DNA from: a virus
Length of the DNA stretch: 25,391 nucleotides
Reading direction: 5' to 3' (one strand)
Virus record (IMG/VR): IMGVR_UViG_3300021962_000596
Coordinates: 1-25,391 of that record
Every line of letters begins with the position of its first letter. The first letter of the stretch is position 1. Under the pieces are notes generated by a model. It saw nothing but the letters and a program-made list of their open reading frames with translations. It was not told where the DNA came from and did not search any database. A program made the translations under genes and the position numbers. Shown piece by piece: positions 8,007 through 21,326 of this stretch.

Positions 8007-11000
8007 ATGTCAATAACTCGCATTAATAACAATCAGATAACAGACGCAATTGCAGGTAATGTATACGTAGGTATTAATGCAGCAGCCAAGTTACAGAATT
8101 ATTCGATCACTTCGCAGAAGATCTCTAATAATTTAACATACGGCTCGGATCTTATTATTGCAGGTAACCTTACTGTTCAAGGTAACGTTACAGCTATCGA
8201 CACCATTGACTTGGTGGTTGAAGATCCCTTAATCTTATTGGCCAAAGATCAAACAGGATCTCCAACTTTAGATATTGGTTTTATTGGCGAACGCGGTTCT
8301 TCGGAAAATATAGCGTTTATATGGGACGAAAGCGCAGGCCAATTTGCCACTGTTTTTACCAACGATGCCATTACCAATTCTGTAGTCACCATATCTAGTT
8401 ATGCTAGTCTACGTGCAAACACTATCACAGCAGCAAATCTTAGTGTAAGTGGCAACGTCACATTCAGCGGTACCATTTTAGGTAATATTTCAGCCACCGG
8501 TAATGTGTCTGGTGGTAATCTTATAAGCTCAGCTTTGGTTCAAGGCGTCACTGTATCGGCTAGTGGAAACGTTCAAGGTGGTAACTTACGTACAGCTGGA
8601 CTGGTCAGTGCCACTGGTAATGTAACTGGCGGAAATCTTACTACAGCTGGAATTGTTTCTGCTGCCTCCACCGTGGGTGGCGTGATCACTGGTAGCAGTG
8701 TTTCAGTAACAGGCACACAAACAGCCGCCAGTACTGTGGGTGGCGTGATCACTGGTAGCAGTGTTTCAGTAACAGGCACACAAACAGCCGCCAGTACTGT
8801 GGGTGGCGTGATCACTGGTAGCAGTGTTTCAGTAACAGGCACACAAACAGCCGCCAGCACTGTGGGTGGCGTGATCACCGGAACAAGTGCTAGTGTATCA
8901 GGTAATGTCACAGGTGGTAATGTATTAACAGGCGGTGTAGTTTCTGCTGCTGGCAACATCATAGCCAATCCTGCTAGTTTCTTTATTGGTAACGGTAGCC
9001 AACTCACAGGTGTTGCTGCTGCATCAGCTGGATTCCCAATCAGTAATGGTACCAGCAACATCAATGCTGCAATCAATGCCCCCATCACTTTTGGTGTGTC
9101 TGGCACCAGCAACGTAGTTGTATTCACAGCAACTGGTGTTGACGTTACTGGTAATATAAGTGCCACTGGCAACGTATCAGGCGTAAACTTCTTTGGTACA
9201 AATACCAGTGTCACAGGAACAACCACCGCAGCATCAGTTGTGGGTGGAGTTATTACAGGTACTTCGACAAGCGTCACAGGAACAACCACAGCAGCATCAG
9301 TAGTTGGCGGGGTTATAACTGGTTCAAGTACCAGTGTCACAGGAACAACCACAGCAGCATCAGTAGTTGGCGGGGTTATAACTGGTTCAAGTACCAGTGT
9401 CACAGGAACAACCACAGCAGCATCAGTGGTTGGTGGTGTGATTACCGGTTCAAGTGTCAGTGTTACTGGCAACGTATCTGGTGTAAACTTCTTTGGTACA
9501 AATACCAGTGTCACAGGTACAACCACAGCAGCATCAGTGGTTGGTGGTGTGATTACCGGTTCAAGTGTCAGTGTTACTGGCAACGTATCTGGTGTAAACT
9601 TCTTTGGTACAAATACCAGTGTCACAGGCACACAAACAGCCGCCAGTACTGTTGGTGGTGTGATCACAGGTTCAAGTTCATCAGTAACTGGCACACAAAC
9701 AGCCGCCAGTACTGTTGGTGGTGTGATCACGGGTTCAAGTACCAGTGTAACAGGTACTACCACAGCAGCATCAGTTGTGGGTGGCGTGATCACAGGTTCA
9801 AGTACCAGTGTAACAGGTACTACCACAGCAGCATCAGTTGTGGGTGGCGTGATCACTGGTTCAAGTGTCAGTGTCACTGGCAACGTAACTGGTGGAAACA
9901 TACTAGCTGGGTCTGGACAGATCAGCACTTCGGGAAATGTCAATGGTGGCAATCTCAATACTAGCAAGATTGTTGGAACAAGCATATCCGTTACAGGTAC
10001 ATCTGTTTTATTCAACCTAACCGGTAACGTAAACCTAAACACCAGATATATCAATGACCTGGCACAACCAGTACAGAATCAAGACGCAGCCACTAAATTG
10101 TATGTGGACAATGCTGTAACTACTTCAATCTCTTATCACGACGCTGTAACAGCGGCCACCACAGGAACATTGGATACCATCACAGGCGGTACCATAACAT
10201 ACAATCAACCCAACGGTGCAGGAAATGGTGTAGGTGCTACACTAACTACTACAGGTAGTTTTAACCTCATCGACACAGCCAACGTTCAAACTATAGGCGC
10301 AAGAATCTTGGTCAAAGACCAGGGCAATGCTGTACAAAATGGTGTGTATGTGTGGTCAAATGCCACAGCAATCACACGTAGCTCAGACACTAACAGCTAT
10401 GCACCAGCCAGTGCCAATGCACTGAGTATAAACGATTACTTCTTTGTTACCAGTGGTAACGTAAACGCAGGATCAGCCTGGATTGTTGATGCTCCATCTG
10501 GTACCATTACATTTGGCACCAGCAACATAGAGTTTGCTCAGTTTAGTAGTAGCCAAACTTACACAGCTAACACAGCAGCTGGTTTGACATTAAATGGTCA
10601 AACGTTTAGTGCCAAAGTTGACAACAACACCACGGCATTTGATGGTGCTGGTAACATATCAGTCAAAGCTGGTGCAAACTTAACCACACCCAACATTGGT
10701 GCAGCCACAGGTACAAGTTTAAGTGTCACAGGTACTGTAACAGCCGCATCAACAGTGGGCGGTGTTATTACAGGTACTTCAACAAGTGTCACCGGAACAC
10801 AAACTGCTGCTTCAACAGTGGGTGGTGTAATTACTGGATCAAGTACCAGTGTCACAGGAACAACCACAGCCGCATCAGTTGTAGGTGGAGTTATTACAGG
10901 TACTTCAACAAGTGTCACAGGAACAACCACAGCCGCATCAGTTGTGGGTGGCGTAATTACAGGATCAAGTGTCAGTGTTACTGGCAACGTATCCGGCGTA

Positions 11001-13835
11001 AACTTCTTTGGTACAAATACCAGTGTCACAGGAACAACCACAGCAGCATCAGTTGTGGGTGGCGTGATTACTGGTACATCAACCTCAGTAACAGGAACAA
11101 CCACAGCAGCATCAGTTGTGGGTGGCGTAATCACAGGTACAAGTACCAGTGTCACAGGAACACAAACTGCTGCTTCAACAGTGGGTGGTGTAATTACTGG
11201 ATCAAGTGCCAGTTTGACTGGTAACGTAACTGGTGGCAACGTCCTAACAGGCGGTTTAATTTCTGCTACTGGCAACATCACAGGCGGCAATATTGCCACA
11301 ACTGGTTCATTTACAGCAGCATCTTTTAGTGCAAGTGGTAACATCACAGGCGGTAATTTATTAACAGGCGGACTAATTTCTTCTACTGGAACAATTACGT
11401 CAGCTACTACTATCACAGGCGGTAATTTAGCAACCAGCGGAACGGTAAGTGCCACAGGCAATATCACTGGCGGCAATATATCTGCAACAAATCACACAGG
11501 TACTAATGTATCAGTAACTGGTACCGTAACAGCCGCATCAACAGTGGGCGGTGTAATTACTGGATCAAGTGCATCAGTCACTGGTACTGTAACAGCCGCA
11601 TCAACAGTGGGTGGTGTGATCACAGGTTCAAGTGCCAGTGTTACTGGTAATGTCACAGGCGGCAACGTCTTAACAGGTGGCTTAATAAGTGCTACTGGCA
11701 ACGTGTCTGGTGGAAATCTCAACGTCACAGGCAACATTGTTGACACTGGTCCCTTGTCTCTGATCACAGCAGCTTCGGGTAACGTCAATCTAGCACCCAA
11801 TGGAACCAATGTGTTAGTGGTCACTACTACAGGTGCCAATATTGCAGGTACGCTCAATGCTACTGGTAATGCCACATTGGGCAATCTCAGTGTTACCAGT
11901 GTTACTGGTACCAGTGTTTCAGTATCAGGCGGGGTAACAGCCGCAAGCGTAGCAGGCGGCGTGATTACAGGTTCAAGTACAAGTGTCACAGGAACAACCA
12001 CAGCAGCATCAGTTGTGGGTGGCGTGATTACAGGTTCAAGTGTCAGTGTTACTGGCAATGTAACTGGTGGAAACGTCACTACTACTGGTATAGCTAGTTT
12101 AGGTAATATTCGTATTAGTGGAGACACAATCACTGGCACCAACGGCCAGGTCTTGATTAACTCAGCCGGTGCAGATGTAAACTTCATAGTTTCTGGAGAT
12201 ACACAAGCCAATCTGTTGGTAGTGGATGCTGGTTCTGACACAGTGCTGATTGGTACAGGAACACCAACTACAAACGCAGCACTCAAGATTGGAACTACAA
12301 ATTCAATCCTGATTCCGGTTGGTAACACAGCACAGCGTCCTGGTACAGCAGTGACAGGTATGGTTCGATTCAACACCAGCTTGGATGTGTTGGAATTCTA
12401 CGACAGCGATTCATGGGTGTCTGCTACTAGCGAATTTACAGTTATTACAGCCGACGAATTCAACGGCGATGGCAGTACTGTTGCATTTACTCTGTCAACT
12501 GCCTCAACAACAGCAGGCACAGTGGTTGCGATCAACGGCATTGTACAGATCCCAACTACAGCCTACTCGGTATCAGGAACTACACTGACATTTACTGAAG
12601 CTCCAGGGGCTAGCGACGTAATTGATGCCAGAGTGTTTACAACCACAACATCAGTGACCAGTATCAGCAATAGTGGAGCAACTGCTGTAGTAGAAACATT
12701 GTCTACAGCCAATGTACAAATCACAGGCAACTTGATTCCTGCAGCCAACGTCACATATGATTTGGGTTCAACTACTAGATTCTGGAATGACTTGTATCTA
12801 GCTGGTAACTCAATTTACTTGGGCACACTGGTAATCAAAGATGTTGGTGCAAACCAAATTGGATTCTTCCAAGCAGACGGTACAACACCTGCCACAATCG
12901 ATGCTGACAACGTAGATACTACACAGATTGCAAGTGGAACATCTAATGCCAAAGTGTCTACAACCAACGGCAATATCACAATGAGTGTTGCTGGTACCAG
13001 CAACGTGGTGGTAGTGGCCGGCTCTGGTGTTTCGATCACAGGCGCACTGGGGGTGACCGGCAACATCACCGTCGGTGATGGCACTGGTGGCAATATTAGC
13101 AATGCCAATGTTATAACTGCGAACACTATAGTGCTGGGTGATGGCACTGGTGGCAATATTAGCAATGCCAATGTTATAACTGCGAACGCCGTCATAGTTA
13201 CTGGTAATATCTCCGGTGGTAACTTGTCAGGTACAAGCATTGTGGGCACCTTGACCACAGCAGCTCAAACTAACATTACATCAGTAGGTACATTAGGTTC
13301 ACTATCTGTAACTGGTAATATTACAGGTGGCAACTTGTCTGTATCAACTGGCACAGTGACACTGGGCAACATTGTCAATTCCAATGCCAACGGTGTAGGT
13401 AATATTGGTAGCTCAACCACATACTTCAATACAGTATTTGCCAAGGCAACAAGTGCTCAATACGCCGACTTGGCTGAGATGTACGAAGCCGACATGCCAA
13501 TTGAACCAGGTACTGTTGTGTGCTTTGGTGGTGCCAAAGAAGTCACCTTGTGTGAAGAAGACGCTTGCCGCAGAATAGCTGGTGTTGTTAGTACAAACCC
13601 CAGCTACTTGATGAACTCGGGTCAGACTGGTGAGTATGTAGTGGCAATCGCTCTACAAGGTCGTGTACCAGTTAAAGTAACCGGCGTCGTTTGCAAGGGC
13701 GACATGATGGTTGCTACCAGCAATGGTCGTGCAAGAGCCGAAGCCAACCCACAAGTGGGTGCAGTAATTGGTAAAGCACTTGCTGATTTTGATGGACAAG
13801 ACGGTGTGATTGAAGTGGTTATTGGGCGAGTGTAA
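8007..13835 (+). CDS. Giant repeat-rich tail fibre with Peptidase_G2-like C-terminal domain
   Basis: This encodes 1942 residues. In order: the N-terminal tag MSITRINNNQI; the ITDPF-like block (IDLVVEDPLILLA) near 50-115; a long shaft with about 24 copies of a 21-residue repeat centred on [VA]GGVITG; an inserted RILVKDQGN...NGVYVW domain near 712-850 that resembles the N-terminal domain of the fibre at 13902; the IPVGNTAQRPG and DGSTVAFTL modules (about 1436-1535); DLGSTTRFWNDLYL near 1586; two copies of DGTGGNISNANVITAN; and the C-terminal domain from about 1816 (AQYADLAEMYEADMP, GVVSTNPSYLMN, VGAVIGKALADF). That last domain resembles Peptidase_G2-type intramolecular chaperone domains; whether it cleaves itself is unknown. 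Repeats contain almost no charged residues, as expected for a beta-helical trimeric shaft. The ATG at 8007 has GGAG at 7997. Confidence 0.85.
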   Translation: MSITRINNNQITDAIAGNVYVGINAAAKLQNYSITSQKISNNLTYGSDLIIAGNLTVQGNVTAIDTIDLVVEDPLILLAKDQTGSPTLDIGFIGERGSSENIAFIWDESAGQFATVFTNDAITNSVVTISSYASLRANTITAANLSVSGNVTFSGTILGNISATGNVSGGNLISSALVQGVTVSASGNVQGGNLRTAGLVSATGNVTGGNLTTAGIVSAASTVGGVITGSSVSVTGTQTAASTVGGVITGSSVSVTGTQTAASTVGGVITGSSVSVTGTQTAASTVGGVITGTSASVSGNVTGGNVLTGGVVSAAGNIIANPASFFIGNGSQLTGVAAASAGFPISNGTSNINAAINAPITFGVSGTSNVVVFTATGVDVTGNISATGNVSGVNFFGTNTSVTGTTTAASVVGGVITGTSTSVTGTTTAASVVGGVITGSSTSVTGTTTAASVVGGVITGSSTSVTGTTTAASVVGGVITGSSVSVTGNVSGVNFFGTNTSVTGTTTAASVVGGVITGSSVSVTGNVSGVNFFGTNTSVTGTQTAASTVGGVITGSSSSVTGTQTAASTVGGVITGSSTSVTGTTTAASVVGGVITGSSTSVTGTTTAASVVGGVITGSSVSVTGNVTGGNILAGSGQISTSGNVNGGNLNTSKIVGTSISVTGTSVLFNLTGNVNLNTRYINDLAQPVQNQDAATKLYVDNAVTTSISYHDAVTAATTGTLDTITGGTITYNQPNGAGNGVGATLTTTGSFNLIDTANVQTIGARILVKDQGNAVQNGVYVWSNATAITRSSDTNSYAPASANALSINDYFFVTSGNVNAGSAWIVDAPSGTITFGTSNIEFAQFSSSQTYTANTAAGLTLNGQTFSAKVDNNTTAFDGAGNISVKAGANLTTPNIGAATGTSLSVTGTVTAASTVGGVITGTSTSVTGTQTAASTVGGVITGSSTSVTGTTTAASVVGGVITGTSTSVTGTTTAASVVGGVITGSSVSVTGNVSGVNFFGTNTSVTGTTTAASVVGGVITGTSTSVTGTTTAASVVGGVITGTSTSVTGTQTAASTVGGVITGSSASLTGNVTGGNVLTGGLISATGNITGGNIATTGSFTAASFSASGNITGGNLLTGGLISSTGTITSATTITGGNLATSGTVSATGNITGGNISATNHTGTNVSVTGTVTAASTVGGVITGSSASVTGTVTAASTVGGVITGSSASVTGNVTGGNVLTGGLISATGNVSGGNLNVTGNIVDTGPLSLITAASGNVNLAPNGTNVLVVTTTGANIAGTLNATGNATLGNLSVTSVTGTSVSVSGGVTAASVAGGVITGSSTSVTGTTTAASVVGGVITGSSVSVTGNVTGGNVTTTGIASLGNIRISGDTITGTNGQVLINSAGADVNFIVSGDTQANLLVVDAGSDTVLIGTGTPTTNAALKIGTTNSILIPVGNTAQRPGTAVTGMVRFNTSLDVLEFYDSDSWVSATSEFTVITADEFNGDGSTVAFTLSTASTTAGTVVAINGIVQIPTTAYSVSGTTLTFTEAPGASDVIDARVFTTTTSVTSISNSGATAVVETLSTANVQITGNLIPAANVTYDLGSTTRFWNDLYLAGNSIYLGTLVIKDVGANQIGFFQADGTTPATIDADNVDTTQIASGTSNAKVSTTNGNITMSVAGTSNVVVVAGSGVSITGALGVTGNITVGDGTGGNISNANVITANTIVLGDGTGGNISNANVITANAVIVTGNISGGNLSGTSIVGTLTTAAQTNITSVGTLGSLSVTGNITGGNLSVSTGTVTLGNIVNSNANGVGNIGSSTTYFNTVFAKATSAQYADLAEMYEADMPIEPGTVVCFGGAKEVTLCEEDACRRIAGVVSTNPSYLMNSGQTGEYVVAIALQGRVPVKVTGVVCKGDMMVATSNGRARAEANPQVGAVIGKALADFDGQDGVIEVVIGRV
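8676..8864 (+). repeat. Three near-exact 63-bp tandem repeats in the giant fibre
   Basis: Units start at 8676, 8739 and 8802, each encoding 21 residues with GGVITGSSVSVTGTQTAAST. I see a single base change in the third copy. A fourth, diverging unit follows from 8865. Near-identity at the DNA level implies recent expansion or conversion. Confidence 0.9.
9204..9880 (+). repeat. Second 63-bp repeat block with a 111-bp higher-order unit
   Basis: Nine copies of the VGGVITG unit lie here, with TTTAASVV and QTAASTV versions interleaved. A longer unit carrying GNVSGVNFFGTNTS repeats with a 111-base offset (for example 9441 against 9552) and recurs near 10970. Confidence 0.85.
10721..11220 (+). repeat. 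Third 63-bp repeat block in the giant fibre
   Basis: Seven copies of the VGGVITG unit follow the inserted RILVKDQGN domain. The pattern of T- and Q-type units is like the second block, which suggests a duplicated shaft segment. Confidence 0.8.
11511..11647 (+). repeat. Short 63-bp repeat pair (TVTAAST type)
   Basis: Two VGGVITG units are separated from the other blocks by TGNITGG-type shaft sequence. Confidence 0.75.
11921..12056 (+). repeat. Last 63-bp repeat pair of the giant fibre
   Basis: There is one AGGVITG and one VGGVITG unit just before the shaft gives way to non-repetitive domains. Confidence 0.75.
13074..13187 (+). repeat. Two copies of a 63-bp-spaced repeat shared with the next gene
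   Basis: The 51-base cores at 13074-13124 and 13137-13187 encode GDGTGGNISNANVITAN. The same core appears three times in the following fibre (15357-15533) with hardly any base changes. It is a natural recombination site between the two genes. Confidence 0.9.
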
Positions 13836-15908: not shown

Positions 15909-16235
15909 ATGGCAACGGTATATAAAGTTCTTGGACAGGTCAAACCCGTAGCAACTACAGCAACTACGCTTTATACAGTACCTGCTGCTACTTCAACTGT
16001 GTGTAGCACGTTATCTATCTGTAGTATTGGGGCGAGTACAACATACCGGGTCGCAATTCGCCCCGCCGGGGCTATACTCGCAGACATTCATTACATCGTT
16101 TATGAAGCGGCGATTAGTCAATACACCACAACGTTACTGACGCTTGGGATTACTCTTGCAGCAACTGATGTTGTGACTGTATATGCGGGTACTGCTAACG
16201 TAGTCTTCAATTTGTATGGATCGGAGGTTACTTAA
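15909..16235 (+). CDS. Small beta-sandwich-type appendage protein (ATVYKVLGQ type)
   Basis: This encodes 108 residues: MATVYKVLGQVKPVATTATT, LYTVPAATSTVCSTLSIC, TYRVAIRPAGA, IHYIVYEAAI, LGITLAATDVVTVYAG, NLYGSEVT. I recall this pattern as a common small protein next to tail-fibre genes of marine phages; no biochemical function is known to me. It begins directly after the stop of the fibre and ends in a TAATG overlap with the BspA-type gene, so the three genes should be translated as a set. It may cap or decorate a fibre (inference). Confidence 0.75.
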   Translation: MATVYKVLGQVKPVATTATTLYTVPAATSTVCSTLSICSIGASTTYRVAIRPAGAILADIHYIVYEAAISQYTTTLLTLGITLAATDVVTVYAGTANVVFNLYGSEVT

Positions 16236-18100
16236 TGTCTATTCGGACAGTCGGCGCATCCCCTACGACAAGTAATGCTGGGCTATACGAAAAAACTTTA
16301 TTCGATTTTATTCCACGATCACCTTGGGTGCGTAATCCAAGCTGGCCCGCATGTACAGCCAATATTGGTGATAACAGAGTTCGCGGGTTGTATGCAGTAT
16401 ATCCCGGCGGCGGAAATTTTATTGCTATGAATATTTCAGGCAATTACACTGTAAACTTTGGGGATGGCACAATCAACAATTATACCAGTGGGATATCTAA
16501 TTATGAATATAATTATAATTCAGCCCTCTTAGTCGGAACAGAAGCTCCCGTTACATTTACGGATGTAAGTGATTCTGTGAACCGTGCGGAGCACGGGTAT
16601 TCAAATGGTATGCAAGTGCGATTTTTTAACATTACCACAACTACAGGTATTGTAAACGATCAGTATTACTTTGTTATTAACGCTACGACCAATACATTCC
16701 AAGTTTCGGCTACTCTTAATGGCCCTCCGATTGTATTGACTAATGATGGTACAGGTCAATTGTTACCATACAGAGTTGCAACAGTCACAATAACACCTCA
16801 AGCTGGCAGTAATCTAACAACCATTAACTTTCAAACAAAACACAACCAAGCTGGGTTGGCTAATGGATACGCATCTGGGTGGCTGGATTTAGCTATTGCC
16901 TCGCCAACTATTACAGGTATTTCTATATTTTCCAACAGCTTTGTTCGTAATACTAATATCGAAAGCGTACAAATAAATCAAACGGGAAATATACTTAGTT
17001 TTAGCAGCTTATTTAATGGTCTTAACAGTTTACAAAATGTGGTAATTAGTCCCACAATTACAACTGTAACAAACACGAATTTTATGTTCTCTAGTTGCTA
17101 TTCCATACAAACAGTACCATTATTTAATACGGCTGCTGTAACAAGTATGCAAAGTATGTTCTCTGGTTGCTATTCCTTGAAATCAGTACCACCATTTAAT
17201 GCGCCTCTTGTAACAAACATGAGCAATATGTTTAATACTTGCTATTCCCTAGAATCCGTACCATTATTTAATACGGCTGCTGTAGGCAACACGGCCAGTA
17301 TGTTTAGTAATTGCTATGCCCTAAAATCCGTACCATTATTTAATACGGCTGCTGTAACAAGCATGAGTAGTATGTTCAATGCTTGTTATTCCCTAAAATC
17401 TGTACCATTATTTAATACGGCTTCTGTAACAAACATGAGCCAGATGTTCTCTAATTGCTATCCCCTAGAATCCGTACCATTATTTAATACGGCTGCTGTA
17501 ACAAATATGTTTGGTATGTTCACTAGTTGCGCTTCCTTACGAACAGTACCACTATTTAATACGGCTAATGTAACAAACATGGACAGTGTGTTTGTTGGTT
17601 GCACTTCCTTACAAACAGTACCACTATTTAATACGGCTAATGTAACAAACATGGCTGGTATGTTTAGTAATTGCAATGCCCTACTGTCAGTACCACCATT
17701 CAATACGGCTGCTGTAACAAGCATGATTGCTATGTTCAATAATTGCTTTTCCTTACTATCAATACCATTATTTAATACGGTTTCTGTAACAAACATGACC
17801 CAGATGTTTGCTCTTTGTTCTTCCCTAGGATCTATCCCCGCTTTAGTGACAACAGCGGTTATATCAGGAGGGTTTGATAACATGTTTCTTAGTTGTCCTA
17901 GTATTGCACGAATTGAAGCTAAAAACTTTAGATTTTCATTTTCGGTCTCTGGCTGCAAATTATCGGCAACTGCACTTAACGAAATATACACAAATTTACC
18001 AACAGTAACGTCGCAAACAATTACGGTAACAAGTAATTACGGCACTGCAACGGACAATCCCGCAATAGCTACAGCCAAGGGCTGGACAGTCACAGGATAA
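16235..18100 (+). CDS. BspA-type leucine-rich-repeat adhesin on a phage
   Basis: This encodes 621 residues. The N-terminal 100 residues include a PKD-like NYTVNFGDGT strand-turn near 70-80, then a beta-rich segment. From 292 to 531 there are ten tandem 24-residue repeats of the form [KEQRL][ST][VI]P-[LP]-F-N-x(3)-V-x-N-M-x-x-M-F-x-x-C-x-[SA]-L. These are DUF285/BspA-like LRRs, with a degenerate eleventh. The end, KLSATALNEIYTNLPTVTSQ ... ATAKGWTVTG, is typical of these proteins. Known relatives are surface proteins that bind host or bacterial partners, so a receptor-binding role is likely. The gene is visibly more AT-rich than the fibres before it, which hints at transfer. The start overlaps the previous stop (TAATG). 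Confidence 0.85.
   Translation: MSIRTVGASPTTSNAGLYEKTLFDFIPRSPWVRNPSWPACTANIGDNRVRGLYAVYPGGGNFIAMNISGNYTVNFGDGTINNYTSGISNYEYNYNSALLVGTEAPVTFTDVSDSVNRAEHGYSNGMQVRFFNITTTTGIVNDQYYFVINATTNTFQVSATLNGPPIVLTNDGTGQLLPYRVATVTITPQAGSNLTTINFQTKHNQAGLANGYASGWLDLAIASPTITGISIFSNSFVRNTNIESVQINQTGNILSFSSLFNGLNSLQNVVISPTITTVTNTNFMFSSCYSIQTVPLFNTAAVTSMQSMFSGCYSLKSVPPFNAPLVTNMSNMFNTCYSLESVPLFNTAAVGNTASMFSNCYALKSVPLFNTAAVTSMSSMFNACYSLKSVPLFNTASVTNMSQMFSNCYPLESVPLFNTAAVTNMFGMFTSCASLRTVPLFNTANVTNMDSVFVGCTSLQTVPLFNTANVTNMAGMFSNCNALLSVPPFNTAAVTSMIAMFNNCFSLLSIPLFNTVSVTNMTQMFALCSSLGSIPALVTTAVISGGFDNMFLSCPSIARIEAKNFRFSFSVSGCKLSATALNEIYTNLPTVTSQTITVTSNYGTATDNPAIATAKGWTVTG
17108..17827 (+). repeat. Ten 72-bp LRR-coding tandem repeats
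   Basis: The unit begins around GTACCATTATTTAATACGGC and recurs every 72 bases (for example 17114 against 17186). The strand-forming V-P-L-F-N-T part is nearly fixed at the DNA level, while the M-x-x-M-F-x-x-C-x part varies more. Confidence 0.9.
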
Positions 18101-18307: not shown

Positions 18308-18403
18308 ATGTTCAGTATAATTTCATTTGCTCAGTCGCTTTTTGCCGGGTTAGGTGCCTGGTGGGTTTATTCATTTACCTCATCGGGCACATACACAGCA
18401 TGA
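18308..18403 (+). pseudogene. Remnant of a fibre C-terminus
   Basis: A 31-codon frame contains GAWWVYSFTSSGTYTA, the kind of Trp/Tyr/Thr-rich strand pair found at fibre or tip ends. Its TGA (18401-18403) overlaps the ATG of the next remnant as ATGA, the same architecture as the junction at 20661-20664. I read it as the last piece of a deleted fibre gene. A tiny functional gene cannot be excluded. Confidence 0.5.
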
Positions 18404-18519
18404 TACCCACCCGATACCGTAGAGATTATGCCGGCGAATTTGTGGTCACCAGAACCAGAATGGCCAATGTACGTGGTCATCAGGCACGTGAGTGGATTCC
18501 CAACGCACTTAAAACATAA
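18400..18519 (+). pseudogene. Truncated copy of the GT42/MptE-like gene at 20661
   Basis: It codes for 39 residues (MIPTRYRRDYAGEFVVTRTR and on to EWIPNALKT) that align with the first 39 of the 221-residue protein at 20661, then stops. Over 89 bases (18418-18506 against 20679-20767) I count about ten mismatches. The rest of the gene is missing, replaced by an AT-rich inverted repeat (18516-18532) and the promoter of the kelch-like gene. Confidence 0.8.
18418..18506 (+). repeat. Direct repeat, left copy (partner 20679-20767)
   Basis: About 89% identical over 89 bases to 20679-20767, in the same orientation and 2261 bases apart. It brackets the kelch-like gene, the coiled-coil gene and the fibre pseudogene. 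Confidence 0.85.
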
Positions 18520-18594: not shown

Positions 18595-19545
18595 ATGCAA
18601 ATTACTGGAATGACATTGACAGGGATTACAATAACTGCCCCGGTACCACCGCCACCTGCGACACCAAAAAAGGCAATATTTGGATATGGGTTTAGTGGCT
18701 CTGGTCTTACTGGCGTGACAAATTTAGTATCTGATACTGGCGTAGTTGCCACAGATACTACGGGTGTTGGTACTATTCGTTCCGATTTGGCAGCCGCCGG
18801 CTACGGAACAGACAAGGCAATATTTGGATATGGGGATGATGGTGGCGGCCTGGTGAGCATGACAAATTTAGTATCTAATACAGGCGTAGTTGCCACAGAT
18901 ACCGCTGGTGTTGGTACCGCTCGTATGGGCTTAGCCGCAGCTGGTTATGGATCAGACAAGGCAATATTTGGATACGGGTATGACTATAATGTCCCAACCA
19001 TGCTCAATCTGACAAATTTAGTATCTAATACCGGTGTAGTTGCTACAGATACTACGGGTGTTGGTACTGCTCGTGCGTTCTTGGCAGCTGCCGGCTACGG
19101 AACAGACACGGCAATATTTGGATATGGTGCTGATGGGTCCTTTGCTCTTCAGAGCGTGACAAATTTAGTATCTAATACTGGTGTAGTTGCTACAGATACT
19201 ACAGGTGTTGGTACTCCTCGTCAGGCCTTAGCGGCCACCGGCTACGGAACAGACAAGGCAATATTTGGATATGGAGACGAATTCGCTCCCTCTATAAGTG
19301 TAACAAATTTAGTATCTAATACTGGTGTAGTTGCCACAGATACCGCTGGTGTTGGTACTGCTCGTAGCAGCTTAGCCGCCGCTGGTTATGGAACAGACAC
19401 AGCAATATTTGGATATGGTGTAACCACCGGCGTTGCTATCTTACGAAGCATGACAAATTTAGTATCTAATACCGGTGTAGTTGCCACAGATACTACGGGT
19501 GTTGGTACTGCTCGTAGCAGCTTAGCCGCTGCATCATACGGCTAA
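18595..19545 (+). CDS. Six-repeat kelch-like propeller protein, likely binding or tip protein
   Basis: This encodes 316 residues. A short leader (TLTGITITAPVPPPPATPK) precedes six tandem repeats of 48-50 residues from residue 26 to the end. Each reads [KT]AIFGYG, a variable 9-11 residue loop, TNLVS[ND]TGVVATDT[TA]GVG, R-x-x-LAA.GYG. The order of elements (a glycine-rich strand, a variable loop, a threonine strand, then R-x-x-L) resembles kelch blades, but GYG replaces the usual GG and the kelch Trp is absent. The fold is therefore a tentative six-bladed propeller. Loop sequences differ strongly while the scaffold is almost fixed, also at the DNA level. It has its own late promoter and AAGGA site. 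Virion display is inferred from position in the fibre locus. Confidence 0.7.
   Translation: MQITGMTLTGITITAPVPPPPATPKKAIFGYGFSGSGLTGVTNLVSDTGVVATDTTGVGTIRSDLAAAGYGTDKAIFGYGDDGGGLVSMTNLVSNTGVVATDTAGVGTARMGLAAAGYGSDKAIFGYGYDYNVPTMLNLTNLVSNTGVVATDTTGVGTARAFLAAAGYGTDTAIFGYGADGSFALQSVTNLVSNTGVVATDTTGVGTPRQALAATGYGTDKAIFGYGDEFAPSISVTNLVSNTGVVATDTAGVGTARSSLAAAGYGTDTAIFGYGVTTGVAILRSMTNLVSNTGVVATDTTGVGTARSSLAAASYG
18670..19542 (+). repeat. Six 144-150-bp tandem repeats encoding the kelch-like blades
   Basis: Units have lengths of 48, 48, 50, 49, 48 and 48 codons. The stretch ACAAATTTAGTATCTAATAC and the following GTAGTTGC segment are nearly the same in all units, while the loop codons after GGATATGG differ in sequence and length. 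Confidence 0.9.
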
Positions 19546-19608: not shown

Positions 19609-20220
19609 ATGCCTTCCAAATTAAATTCAGAATTTAACTATCGCTATCAAGTAATTGGTGAAACTGTTTGGGAAAAAATCAAAACACTACAGGGCTTTTT
19701 AGAGGGTCGTATTAGAGCTTCTAAATTGGAAGAAGTTTCTATTATTCGTTCCAAAGCAAAAAAAGCAAAACTTGAATACTTAAAAACAAAATACGATACC
19801 CCGGAATATGAAATCTTAGAACTAGAAGCAGAAATAAAAGAAGCTGAAAGTTTTGGTGATCCCAGTTATGCATATGAACTCAATCGTCAAGAAATAGAAA
19901 TTCTACAAAAATTGTTGACTGAATATTATGAAATAGCAGAACCAACTCGTATTCCTGGATATACCGATGAACAAATGTTTGAAGTCAACGCCGCCAATGA
20001 ATTTACCGCTGTGATAGGCAAAGAAATTTACGCAGAAATATTAGCTACGGGTCATCCAAGTCCGGCAAAAATTCGTAATGCTATGAGTAATCCAGTGACA
20101 TGGAACGCACTAAAAGGTCTGGGTCTAATTCCAAAAGATTCATTTTTGTTAAAATCCAGCGATGACCCTCTGAAAATTGAATTAACACAATCAGACGTAA
20201 AATCTCTCACTAATGAGTAA
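19609..20220 (+). CDS. Coiled-coil protein of unknown function paired with the kelch-like gene
   Basis: This encodes 203 residues. It is highly charged and helical: WEKIKTLQGFLEGRIRASKL, then KAKKAKLEYLK and a ILELEAEIKEAE segment (about 40-105) form a probable coiled coil. A smaller C-terminal part has MSNPVTWNALKGLGLIPKDS. There are no membrane or catalytic motifs. The acidic and lysine-rich composition contrasts with the neutral fibre proteins around it, so a non-virion role such as a fibre-assembly chaperone is possible (inference from position only). It has its own promoter and ends in a strong terminator. Confidence 0.7.
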   Translation: MPSKLNSEFNYRYQVIGETVWEKIKTLQGFLEGRIRASKLEEVSIIRSKAKKAKLEYLKTKYDTPEYEILELEAEIKEAESFGDPSYAYELNRQEIEILQKLLTEYYEIAEPTRIPGYTDEQMFEVNAANEFTAVIGKEIYAEILATGHPSPAKIRNAMSNPVTWNALKGLGLIPKDSFLLKSSDDPLKIELTQSDVKSLTNE

Positions 20221-20297: not shown

Positions 20298-20664
20298 ATG
20301 GCATTAACCAGAATCCGTGCTCAACAGATATCAAACATTGATTACAAACAAGCAACTCGAGTAGTGACCACTAGCAATATTGTATTGAATGGTGGTGCAC
20401 CCAATCAAGTTGATAATATAAATCTTGCTATTAATGACCGGTTACCGGTCAATTAACTGCCAGCCAAAATGGCATATATTTTGTGCAATCCTTGGGTACA
20501 GGTTCCAACGGAACTGGAGCATTTACAGTTCCAGTTGTGTTGCTGGAGTAGCAACTGCATTAAACAACAACTTGTACAAGCCCGGCTCAGTGATTGGTAA
20601 ATCACTAGAGTCCTACAACAGTATCAGTGAAGGCGTCATAGAAATACTATTAGGAAGATTGTGA
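20298..20664 (+). pseudogene. Decayed chimeric fibre: N-terminus of the 13902 type, C-terminus of the giant-fibre type
   Basis: From the ATG at 20298 the first 20 residues, MALTRIRAQQISNIDYKQAT, match the fibre at 13902 almost exactly. The reading stops at TAA 20454-20456. The homology continues in another frame (QLTASQNGIYFVQSLGTGSN) to a TAG at 20549-20551. A third frame then gives PGSVIGKSLESYNSISEGVI and ends EILLGRL at the TGA 20662-20664. That last part aligns with the end of the giant fibre (VGAVIGKALADF ... VIGRV). At least two frameshifts and a large internal deletion are needed. Its promoter region is also a copy of that at 13873. Confidence 0.85.
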
Positions 20665-21326
20665 TACAGGCTAGATATCGTAGAGATTATGAAGGCGAAT
20701 TTGTGGTCACTAGAACCAGAATGGCCAATGGACGCGGACAACAGTCACGTGAATGGATTCCAAACGCTGTAGAAAATCAACACATATCAGGTCGTGCTGC
20801 TGTGATCGGAAGTGGTATAGATCGTGAACGCTTTGACTATGCTAGACTACAGCGACATCGCGGTGGATTACTGGCCAAGAAGCGACTACAGACCTATGCC
20901 AGTGATCAAATATGGTCCGACATGCCCACAGATTTCTTTGTCACTATCAACCGCAACACAGCCAAACACATACGCGAGGCTGACTATCACACAAACAGCA
21001 TAGTGTATACTTCGCCTAACATTTGTATGACTTATCCAGGTGATTTTTTTCTAGTGCCCATGTCGCCGCAGTTGAGTGAAATTGCTCTAGCTGTTTACTT
21101 GGCAGCGTTTGACGAACACGAAGAAATATTCTTGCTGGGCTACAACAACGAAACTCCTGTACAAGACAGCGGCTGGATACATCATGTGAATTCAGTGTTT
21201 GAAGCCTACACATCAACTCGTTTTGTATTGGTTGGTACCGCAGTGAACATGCCTGACATGTGGCGCAGTAATCGCAATGTTGATACTGTAAAGTATCGCG
21301 ATTTTGTGACCTATTGCGATATTTGA
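20661..21326 (+). CDS. GT42/MptE-like Rossmann protein, second copy type
   Basis: This encodes 221 residues from GTG at 20661, which overlaps the pseudogene stop (GTGA) and has AGGA at 20652-20655. The first 40 residues are a basic arm (YRRDYEGEFVVTRTR). Then come AAVIGSGIDRERFDYARL (about 46-63) and MPTDFFVTINR. Near the end of the fold is SEIALAVYLAAFDEHEEIFLLGY, the S-x-x-A ... I-F-L-L-G pattern of the GT42/DUF115/MptE group. It ends RDFVTYCDI. The protein at 5238 has the same core order, so both probably share a nucleotide-sugar-type binding fold. The GNG loop is GSG here, and the C-N-x-x-Y motif is not evident, so activity is uncertain. Its stop overlaps the convergent Nudix gene by 16 bases. 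Confidence 0.6.
   Translation: MIQARYRRDYEGEFVVTRTRMANGRGQQSREWIPNAVENQHISGRAAVIGSGIDRERFDYARLQRHRGGLLAKKRLQTYASDQIWSDMPTDFFVTINRNTAKHIREADYHTNSIVYTSPNICMTYPGDFFLVPMSPQLSEIALAVYLAAFDEHEEIFLLGYNNETPVQDSGWIHHVNSVFEAYTSTRFVLVGTAVNMPDMWRSNRNVDTVKYRDFVTYCDI
20679..20767 (+). repeat. Direct repeat, right copy (partner 18418-18506)
   Basis: This lies within the intact GT42/MptE-like gene. See the left copy at 18418-18506 for the comparison. Confidence 0.85.

Follow-up and report, generated by a model that had tools for sequence, protein, structure and literature searches.

A predicted kelch-type propeller with two hypervariable sites per blade, probably an interchangeable receptor-binding head of tailed phages

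The open reading frame (ORF) at 18595 to 19545 of the window, the 25,391-nucleotide stretch analyzed here (positions 1 to 25,391 of IMG/VR virus record IMGVR_UViG_3300021962_000596), probably codes for an interchangeable head with which a tailed phage binds its receptor. Its product is predicted to fold as a six-bladed kelch-type propeller, and every blade carries two sites that are hypervariable among relatives. We infer its position on the virion and its binding function from its fusion partners, its gene neighborhood, a structural alignment with KEAP1, and the precedent of a kelch protein in phage CBB.

The 316-residue protein consists of a 25-residue N-terminal peptide followed by six repeats of 48, 48, 50, 49, 48, and 48 residues (Table 1), and Tandem Repeats Finder reported the DNA as a 144-nt array at 18670 to 19529 (5.9 copies; score, 828). 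The repeat consensus is [KT]AIFGYG - 9-11-residue loop - TNLVS[ND]TGVVATDT[TA]GVGT[AIP]R - XX - LAA[AT][GS]YG, where XX stands for two variable residues. An earlier note, made from the letters of the window, had described six 48- to 50-residue repeats with a differing 9- to 11-residue loop after IFGYG, and this pattern is present far beyond chance; no two of the six loops are alike. The same note had each blade vary in that loop only. The loop holds, but a second hypervariable site had been overlooked, namely the XX residues between [A/I/P]R and the LAA[AT] strand, for which the window's blades share one state only, SS in blades 5 and 6.

Table 1. Features of the propeller gene and related ORFs (window positions unless a locus is named)
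Feature	Position	Strand	Basis
Predicted six-bladed propeller protein, 316 aa	18595..19545	+	ORF; AlphaFold2 (AF2) model; kelch structure matches
N-terminal peptide, 25 residues (MQITGMTLTGITITAPVPPPPATPK), proposed attachment peptide	18595..18669	+	related Gly-rich peptides on other heads
Blade 1 (residues 26-73)	18670..18813	+	repeats, AF2 model
Blade 2 (residues 74-121)	18814..18957	+	repeats, AF2 model
Blade 3 (residues 122-171)	18958..19107	+	repeats, AF2 model
Blade 4 (residues 172-220)	19108..19254	+	repeats, AF2 model
Blade 5 (residues 221-268)	19255..19398	+	repeats, AF2 model
Blade 6 (residues 269-316)	19399..19542	+	last strand would close ring with blade 1 (from strand order)
Hypervariable loop, blade 1: FSGSGLTGV	18691..18717	+	repeats, site-wise variability
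Hypervariable loop, blade 2: DDGGGLVSM	18835..18861	+	repeats, site-wise variability
Hypervariable loop, blade 3: YDYNVPTMLNL	18979..19011	+	repeats, site-wise variability
Hypervariable loop, blade 4: ADGSFALQSV	19129..19158	+	repeats, site-wise variability
Hypervariable loop, blade 5: DEFAPSISV	19276..19302	+	repeats, site-wise variability
Hypervariable loop, blade 6: VTTGVAILRSM	19420..19452	+	repeats, site-wise variability
XX site, blade 1: SD	18781..18786	+	repeats, site-wise variability
XX site, blade 2: MG	18925..18930	+	repeats, site-wise variability
XX site, blade 3: AF	19075..19080	+	repeats, site-wise variability
XX site, blade 4: QA	19222..19227	+	repeats, site-wise variability
XX site, blade 5: SS	19366..19371	+	repeats, site-wise variability
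XX site, blade 6: SS, aligned with KEAP1 Ser602-Gly603	19516..19521	+	structure alignment and available text of PMC4506958
203-aa ORF (LNSEFNYRYQVIG...)	19609..20220	+	among 160 testable locus-strand arrays, 48 have the motif ORF directly after the last head (no deduplication of loci)
Second kelch-like family ORFs	L011:2951-3925; L036:2981-3982; L034:4952-5926; L196:4895-5875; L129 (three ORFs)		

AlphaFold2, given the window protein with 70 relatives (71 aligned sequences), returned a model with pLDDT 91.1 and pTM 0.84. The best solved match found by Foldseek was the kelch domain of KLHL12 (E = 5e-15). In VIA-align, designed symmetric SAKe propellers, KLHL17, KLHL2, KLHL12, and KEAP1 tied at Z of 33.6 to 34.8 (34 to 35 when rounded), and 270 to 281 residues aligned with solved kelch propellers at an rmsd of 2.2 to 2.3 and 11 to 16% identity. 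Blade 1 of the model opens with its second strand (KAIFGYG, 26-34), and the final strand of the chain (311-315) is a first strand that closes the modeled ring at the C terminus, as in kelch domains. The window protein is thus predicted to be a six-bladed kelch-type propeller superposable on kelch domains; the structure prediction that the earlier note had proposed as a check gave this fold and not a non-propeller fold with buried loops. No Pfam kelch family matched the protein at E up to 1, and the Pfam scan otherwise yielded one sub-threshold, chance-like match. The glycine doublet that ends the second strand of kelch repeats is absent, and the conserved motif is G-Y-G. Since no Pfam kelch match was obtained, we claim a kelch-type fold and not membership in a Pfam kelch family.

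Both variable sites appear to lie on the side of the propeller that binds ligand in KEAP1. In several KEAP1 alignments from VIA-align, model residues 25, 26, 315, and 316 pair with KEAP1 residues 326, 327, 609, and 610, respectively. If no gaps are assumed near these ends, residue 33, where the first loop begins, falls on Tyr334, and the XX of blade 6 (308-309) falls on Ser602/Gly603. According to the available text of PMC4506958, Tyr334, Ser602, Gly603, Ser363, and Arg380 are among the KEAP1 ligand-recognition residues, the first-blade hairpin spans 334 to 338, and the ligand side is opposite the termini. Because loop and XX both align with ligand-contact positions, they are predicted to occupy one face, a placement read from alignment end points and not from a full superposition. 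The suggestion in the earlier note that the loops would lie on one face of a propeller is supported by this alignment.

A pattern scan of IMG/VR matched 371 stretches, 368 of them relatives, from which 80 loci were taken; a degenerate pattern scan gave at least 120 stretches. The 199 loci hold 365 repeat-bearing ORFs (218 unique, 207 not contained in another, and 172 complete among those). Six blades predominate among the complete ORFs (157), with five blades in 6, two in 4, three, four, and twelve in 1 each, and eighteen in 2. The best five structure matches in BFVD were uncultured Caudovirales proteins with 21 to 68% identity, named uncharacterized or glycine-rich domain-containing. Searches of 50,697 cultured-phage records by tblastn and blastn returned no match, an absence that is not firm because low-complexity filtering may have masked the protein. 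A pattern scan across 84,980 prokaryotic species, each represented by one genome, gave 45 stretches and no relatives. An exact 23-mer from the gene downstream of the propeller matched only the window, and no other allele of this locus was obtained. Some relatives depart from the usual layout. Short ORFs with an N-terminal peptide and only two blades (L002:5741 onward and L085:11401 onward) may be silent donors or decaying copies, and the L099 record (G011:C1:16931-24100, - strand) has two heads within a single open frame of 3587 codons.

The variability measurements covered 174 viral genes with 1061 blades, 991 of them distinct. Among the distinct blades, the 34 scaffold positions had a mean entropy of 0.61 bit (maximum, 1.79), compared to 3.59 and 3.57 bits for the two XX positions; the hypervariable sites span 2.8 to 3.8 bits, with the loop reaching 3.8. 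Loops ranged from 3 to 16 residues in length, and 955 were distinct among the 991 distinct blades. The pN/pS ratio was 0.20 in the scaffold versus 0.93 to 1.14 in the loop body and XX. The alignment of relatives that the earlier note had called for therefore found loops far more variable than scaffolds, not equally conserved. As the loop ratio is about 1 and not clearly above it, diversifying selection is unproven by rate.

A pN/pS near 1 in loops and XX is what would be expected of unconstrained drift, in which nothing depends on these residues and the scaffold is conserved because folding or virion assembly requires it; in close pairs, too, loops and XX show nonsynonymous changes at roughly the per-site frequency of synonymous changes in the scaffold, as estimated from counts. 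However, the residue composition of the hypervariable sites does not fit drift. At XX, Tyr makes up 18.5% versus 9.4% expected from codon-position base frequencies, Gln 7.3 versus 2.4%, Cys 0.1 versus 6.6%, and Lys 0.8 versus 3.8%; the loops show the same trend, and Asp and His are also depleted against the codon expectation at hypervariable sites. Exactly two residues vary between the conserved R and L, loop and XX both align with the ligand face, and whole heads are replaced within fixed flanks. We therefore consider drift quite unlikely. A fixed stock of reused loop cassettes was ruled out as the main source of diversity, since nearly all amino acid loops are distinct and the same nucleotide loop is shared by only 20 gene pairs, mostly near-identical alleles. 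Thirteen loops with identical nucleotides are each found beside two or more XX nucleotide sequences, although in some cases the XX differences are synonymous only. This points tentatively to recombination within blades, but the number is small.

Hypervariable sites in a fixed frame also resemble the targets of diversity-generating retroelements, and many variable codons end in T, like the NNT codons derived from mutated AAT. Targeted hypermutation by such an element or similar machinery is nevertheless extremely improbable. Third-position T is nearly as frequent in the scaffold (46%) as in XX (52%). The codons are mixed and include TGG, CAA, TTA, and GAG without an adenine-only pattern. Loop length varies, and near-identical strains mostly carry identical loops. 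No reverse transcriptase (RVT_1) match was found in any of 18 records, which include ones of 525, 297, 180, and 171 kb and may be fragments, while the control search was positive in 3 of 14 control genomes. Lack of a reverse transcriptase in these records makes a retroelement unlikely, and together with the codon pattern and the mixed codons it led us to reject this origin.

The view put forward earlier, that concerted evolution keeps the blades alike, holds in part. Where two repeats have the same residue at a given repeat position, their codons were identical in 61% of comparisons within a gene (76% in the window gene), 60% between genes of a locus, and 48% between loci; for the same residue at different repeat positions the figure was about 35%. 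Higher codon sharing within genes and loci indicates that blades of a phage lineage have been exchanged or share a recent origin. Synonymous divergence was 0.48 within genes, 0.31 in the window gene, and 0.63 between loci. Given the divergence within genes and the scaffold pN/pS, purifying selection does much of the work of keeping blades alike. Loops differ even where scaffolds hardly do. In 113 pairs of distinct blades, the scaffolds differ at no more than 3 of 102 bases, yet in 68 of these pairs the loops are unequal in length or diverge by 25% or more. Loci L104 and L134 are the clearest case, with different loops within near-identical scaffold DNA.

Alleles at the proposed binding surface differ between close relatives. 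Such change is not rapid, since strains with near-identical flanks mostly carry identical heads (51 of the 60 pairs listed, of 75, had no repeat difference; many flank-matched pairs come from few phages and are not independent). L179 and L196 differ by three substitutions in one loop and by none elsewhere in 3.8 kb, and L159 and L186 differ by a codon indel in a loop. Substitutions in nine pairs affected 31 of 1248 bases in loop and XX versus 58 of 4896 in the scaffold (odds ratio, 2.1), with nonsynonymous substitutions numbering 24 versus 26 (odds ratio, 3.7); these pairs were picked for recognizable loops and their members overlap, so P values are indicative only. This count left out four blades with more than 10 scaffold differences and two loops with indels, and a separate pair table that includes paralogues of one locus with the same flanks was not used for rates.

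Loop diversification as first proposed stands as far as the loops do vary, but the largest allelic changes are replacements of whole heads and not of single loops. Between L166 and L138, compared in 60-base bins, identity is 96 to 100% upstream, about 57 to 93% in both tandem heads, 94 to 95% in the stretch between the heads, and 88% in the bin at the stop codon, after which it returns to 96 to 100%. Between L132 and L090, the nearest 400 bases upstream are 98 to 100% identical, the head 66 to 91%, and the downstream DNA 91 to 100%. In both pairs, divergence starts and stops at the head edges. A further locus, found by an exact 32-mer in the N-terminal coding part (11 loci), has four heads behind upstream DNA that is 97.5 to 100% identical where comparable. 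Head 1 occurs in six loci (L091, L123, L159, L186, L201, and L203), head 2 in three (L138, L204, and the cut-off L200), and heads 3 and 4 in one each (L166 and L202); L205 and L206, without the start pattern, were left out of the allele comparison. Recurrence of two of the four alleles in several records argues against assembly errors, while the third and fourth come from a single contig each. L166 and L202 differ by 2 to 7 of 102 scaffold bases in blades 1 to 3 and by 21 and 15 in blades 4 and 5, and in blade 3 the XX changes from EQ to GW next to two scaffold differences. No whole donor of a swapped head was found.

The segments joined to the heads vary widely. Ahead of the first blade, the 172 complete ORFs have 166 different sequences, of tail-fiber, LamG, and Gly-rich types. 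The commonest type is a short Gly-rich peptide, which also occurs on 16 unique ORFs without the propeller repeat (Gly-rich heads, LamG, FN3-like, and a second kelch-like family); the window protein has its 25-residue peptide only. Nine of 20 listed ORFs with long N-terminal parts were scanned. Pfam matched Laminin_G_3 in four, Gly_rich_2 in one, and, weakly, Calx-beta and Ig in one, and six of the nine matched PHROGs (tail fiber, 2; baseplate wedge, 3; virion structural, 1), several of these matches falling on the LamG part. Heads often stand in tandem. Downstream of the L166 array are genes for a head-tail adaptor, a head closure protein, and a tail sheath stabilizer, and two downstream matches in the window are to tail sheath and virion structural proteins. 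Matches per record reach 18 in 525 kb and 9 in 171 kb, some being pieces of one gene.

Many copies per record and very different N-termini suggest several virion sites, as might be expected if the propellers were decorations sticking to mucus, polysaccharide, or particles generally, with diversity serving persistence or escape and not host choice. A weak profile similarity to PLL/PHL lectins (E of 2e-5, or 1.9e-5 to PLL2) points the same way, but it may be compositional, and these lectins have seven blades where the phage heads have six. Sharp allelic replacement in fixed flanks would also be more typical of host-range determinants, and we regard general decoration as unlikely. Kelch domains often bind cellular proteins, and poxvirus kelch proteins are among the BFVD matches, so the propeller might instead act inside the cell by capturing host proteins, as poxvirus kelch proteins do. 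Fusions to fiber- and baseplate-like segments, nearby tail genes, and the presence of the phage CBB kelch protein in the mature virion (PMC5259590, available text) speak against this, and there is very little chance that it is correct.

Several other features surround the propeller gene. Just upstream, window positions 18401 to 18506 are an 85% direct repeat of 20662 to 20767 and form a truncated start copy of the 221-aa ORF at 20661 to 21326, perhaps the scar of a module insertion. A 621-aa ORF at 16235 to 18100 has DUF285 (BspA-like) repeats (E = 7e-47; nine copies spaced 72 nt apart) and is possibly another repeat adhesin, and a 1942-aa ORF at 8007 to 13835 has fiber-shaft-like 21-residue repeats in 63-nt tandem arrays. 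An ORF at 185 to 988 looks by eye like a GIY-YIG homing endonuclease, judging from its motif. Elsewhere, the second kelch-like family (GWFGGG...RITYATDTATASVRGPL; GWFGGG...RITYATDTATASVRGPLSSAR xx LAATGN) has six repeats with variable loops behind the same N-terminal peptide as the propeller heads. It had no Pfam kelch match, and its predicted model, made from 8 sequences, was poor (pLDDT 54 and pTM 0.55). With tblastn, a marine virus and Synechococcus phage S-SKS1 matched it weakly.

The kelch propellers of KLHL12, KEAP1, and SAKe share the predicted six-bladed fold and correspond one-to-one with model residues 25 to 315, and in KEAP1 the ligand-contact positions coincide with the hypervariable positions of the phage head. 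The phage heads differ in their low identity, the lack of a Pfam kelch match, and FGYG in place of the glycine doublet; they are viral, and their blades are near-identical with two hypervariable patches. Among phage proteins, the jumbo-phage kelch proteins (CBB_552, BcepSaruman, and PS119XW) are likewise kelch propellers. That of BcepSaruman matches the window model with a TM of 0.76 and 22% identity, and CBB_552 is part of the mature virion, but the available text of PMC5259590 describes neither near-identical blades nor hypervariable sites in it.

The closest evolutionary pattern is that of the fungal HET-D/HET-E (HNWD) WD40 sensors, in which, per the accessible part of PMC12222747, concerted evolution keeps repeats alike and a few sites on the partner-recognizing propeller are hypervariable. 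In contrast to the phage heads, which mostly have six blades or a multiple and loops of varying length, HNWD proteins are intracellular NLRs with WD40 rather than kelch repeats in variable number. Closest in role is the T2-type gp38 adhesin, whose hypervariable loops on a conserved frame at the fiber tip govern receptor choice (PMC12892980, available text). gp38 is a polyglycine sandwich, whereas the phage heads are predicted propellers in several paralogous copies, yet Gly-rich heads share the N-terminal peptide with the propeller heads. Tentaclins, which are receptor-binding proteins diversified by retroelements, also combine a fixed frame with hypervariable positions (available text of PMC10743442), but the phage heads vary in loop length and have neither an adenine-only pattern nor a reverse transcriptase in the records searched. 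In the literature searched, which excluded most subscription papers and all preprints, we found no published description of such a phage propeller or of the IFGYG motif, nor the combination of a kelch-type fold, mostly six blades, two hypervariable sites per blade, tandem copies, and head swapping.

If the receptor-binding reading is right, the head would be a rigid six-bladed kelch-type propeller in which purifying selection, helped in part by conversion among blades and paralogues, allows little change. Twelve hypervariable patches (in each blade, the loop between strands 2 and 3 and the two residues before strand 1) would lie on a face like that which binds ligand in KEAP1. The N-terminal part, whether a short Gly-rich peptide, LamG, or a fiber- or baseplate-like segment, would anchor the head on the virion, with several heads in tandem per phage. 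Whole-head replacement, presumably through recombination in the conserved flanking DNA, would be the main route of allelic change, followed by conversion from one blade to another; substitutions and codon-sized indels within the two patches would act more slowly. More tentatively, and with somewhat less than an even chance in our view, the heads may form an antibody-like repertoire on a kelch frame without a retroelement, in which the 12 patches are recombined blade by blade and whole heads are swapped between loci and phages to give combinatorial binding faces.

The propeller can be likened to an antibody in that the frame is near-constant and the tips vary, and it is probably a swappable tool with which the phage grips its host. 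If so, a single symmetric propeller would have served in nature as a scaffold for binding, its face sampled in hundreds of variants whose sequences already lie in public contigs, and these variants would show which positions of a kelch face can vary. More than 170 natural head variants on one frame would then be at hand for protein engineering. The system would also offer a test of how host switching proceeds in uncultured tailed phages without a retroelement.
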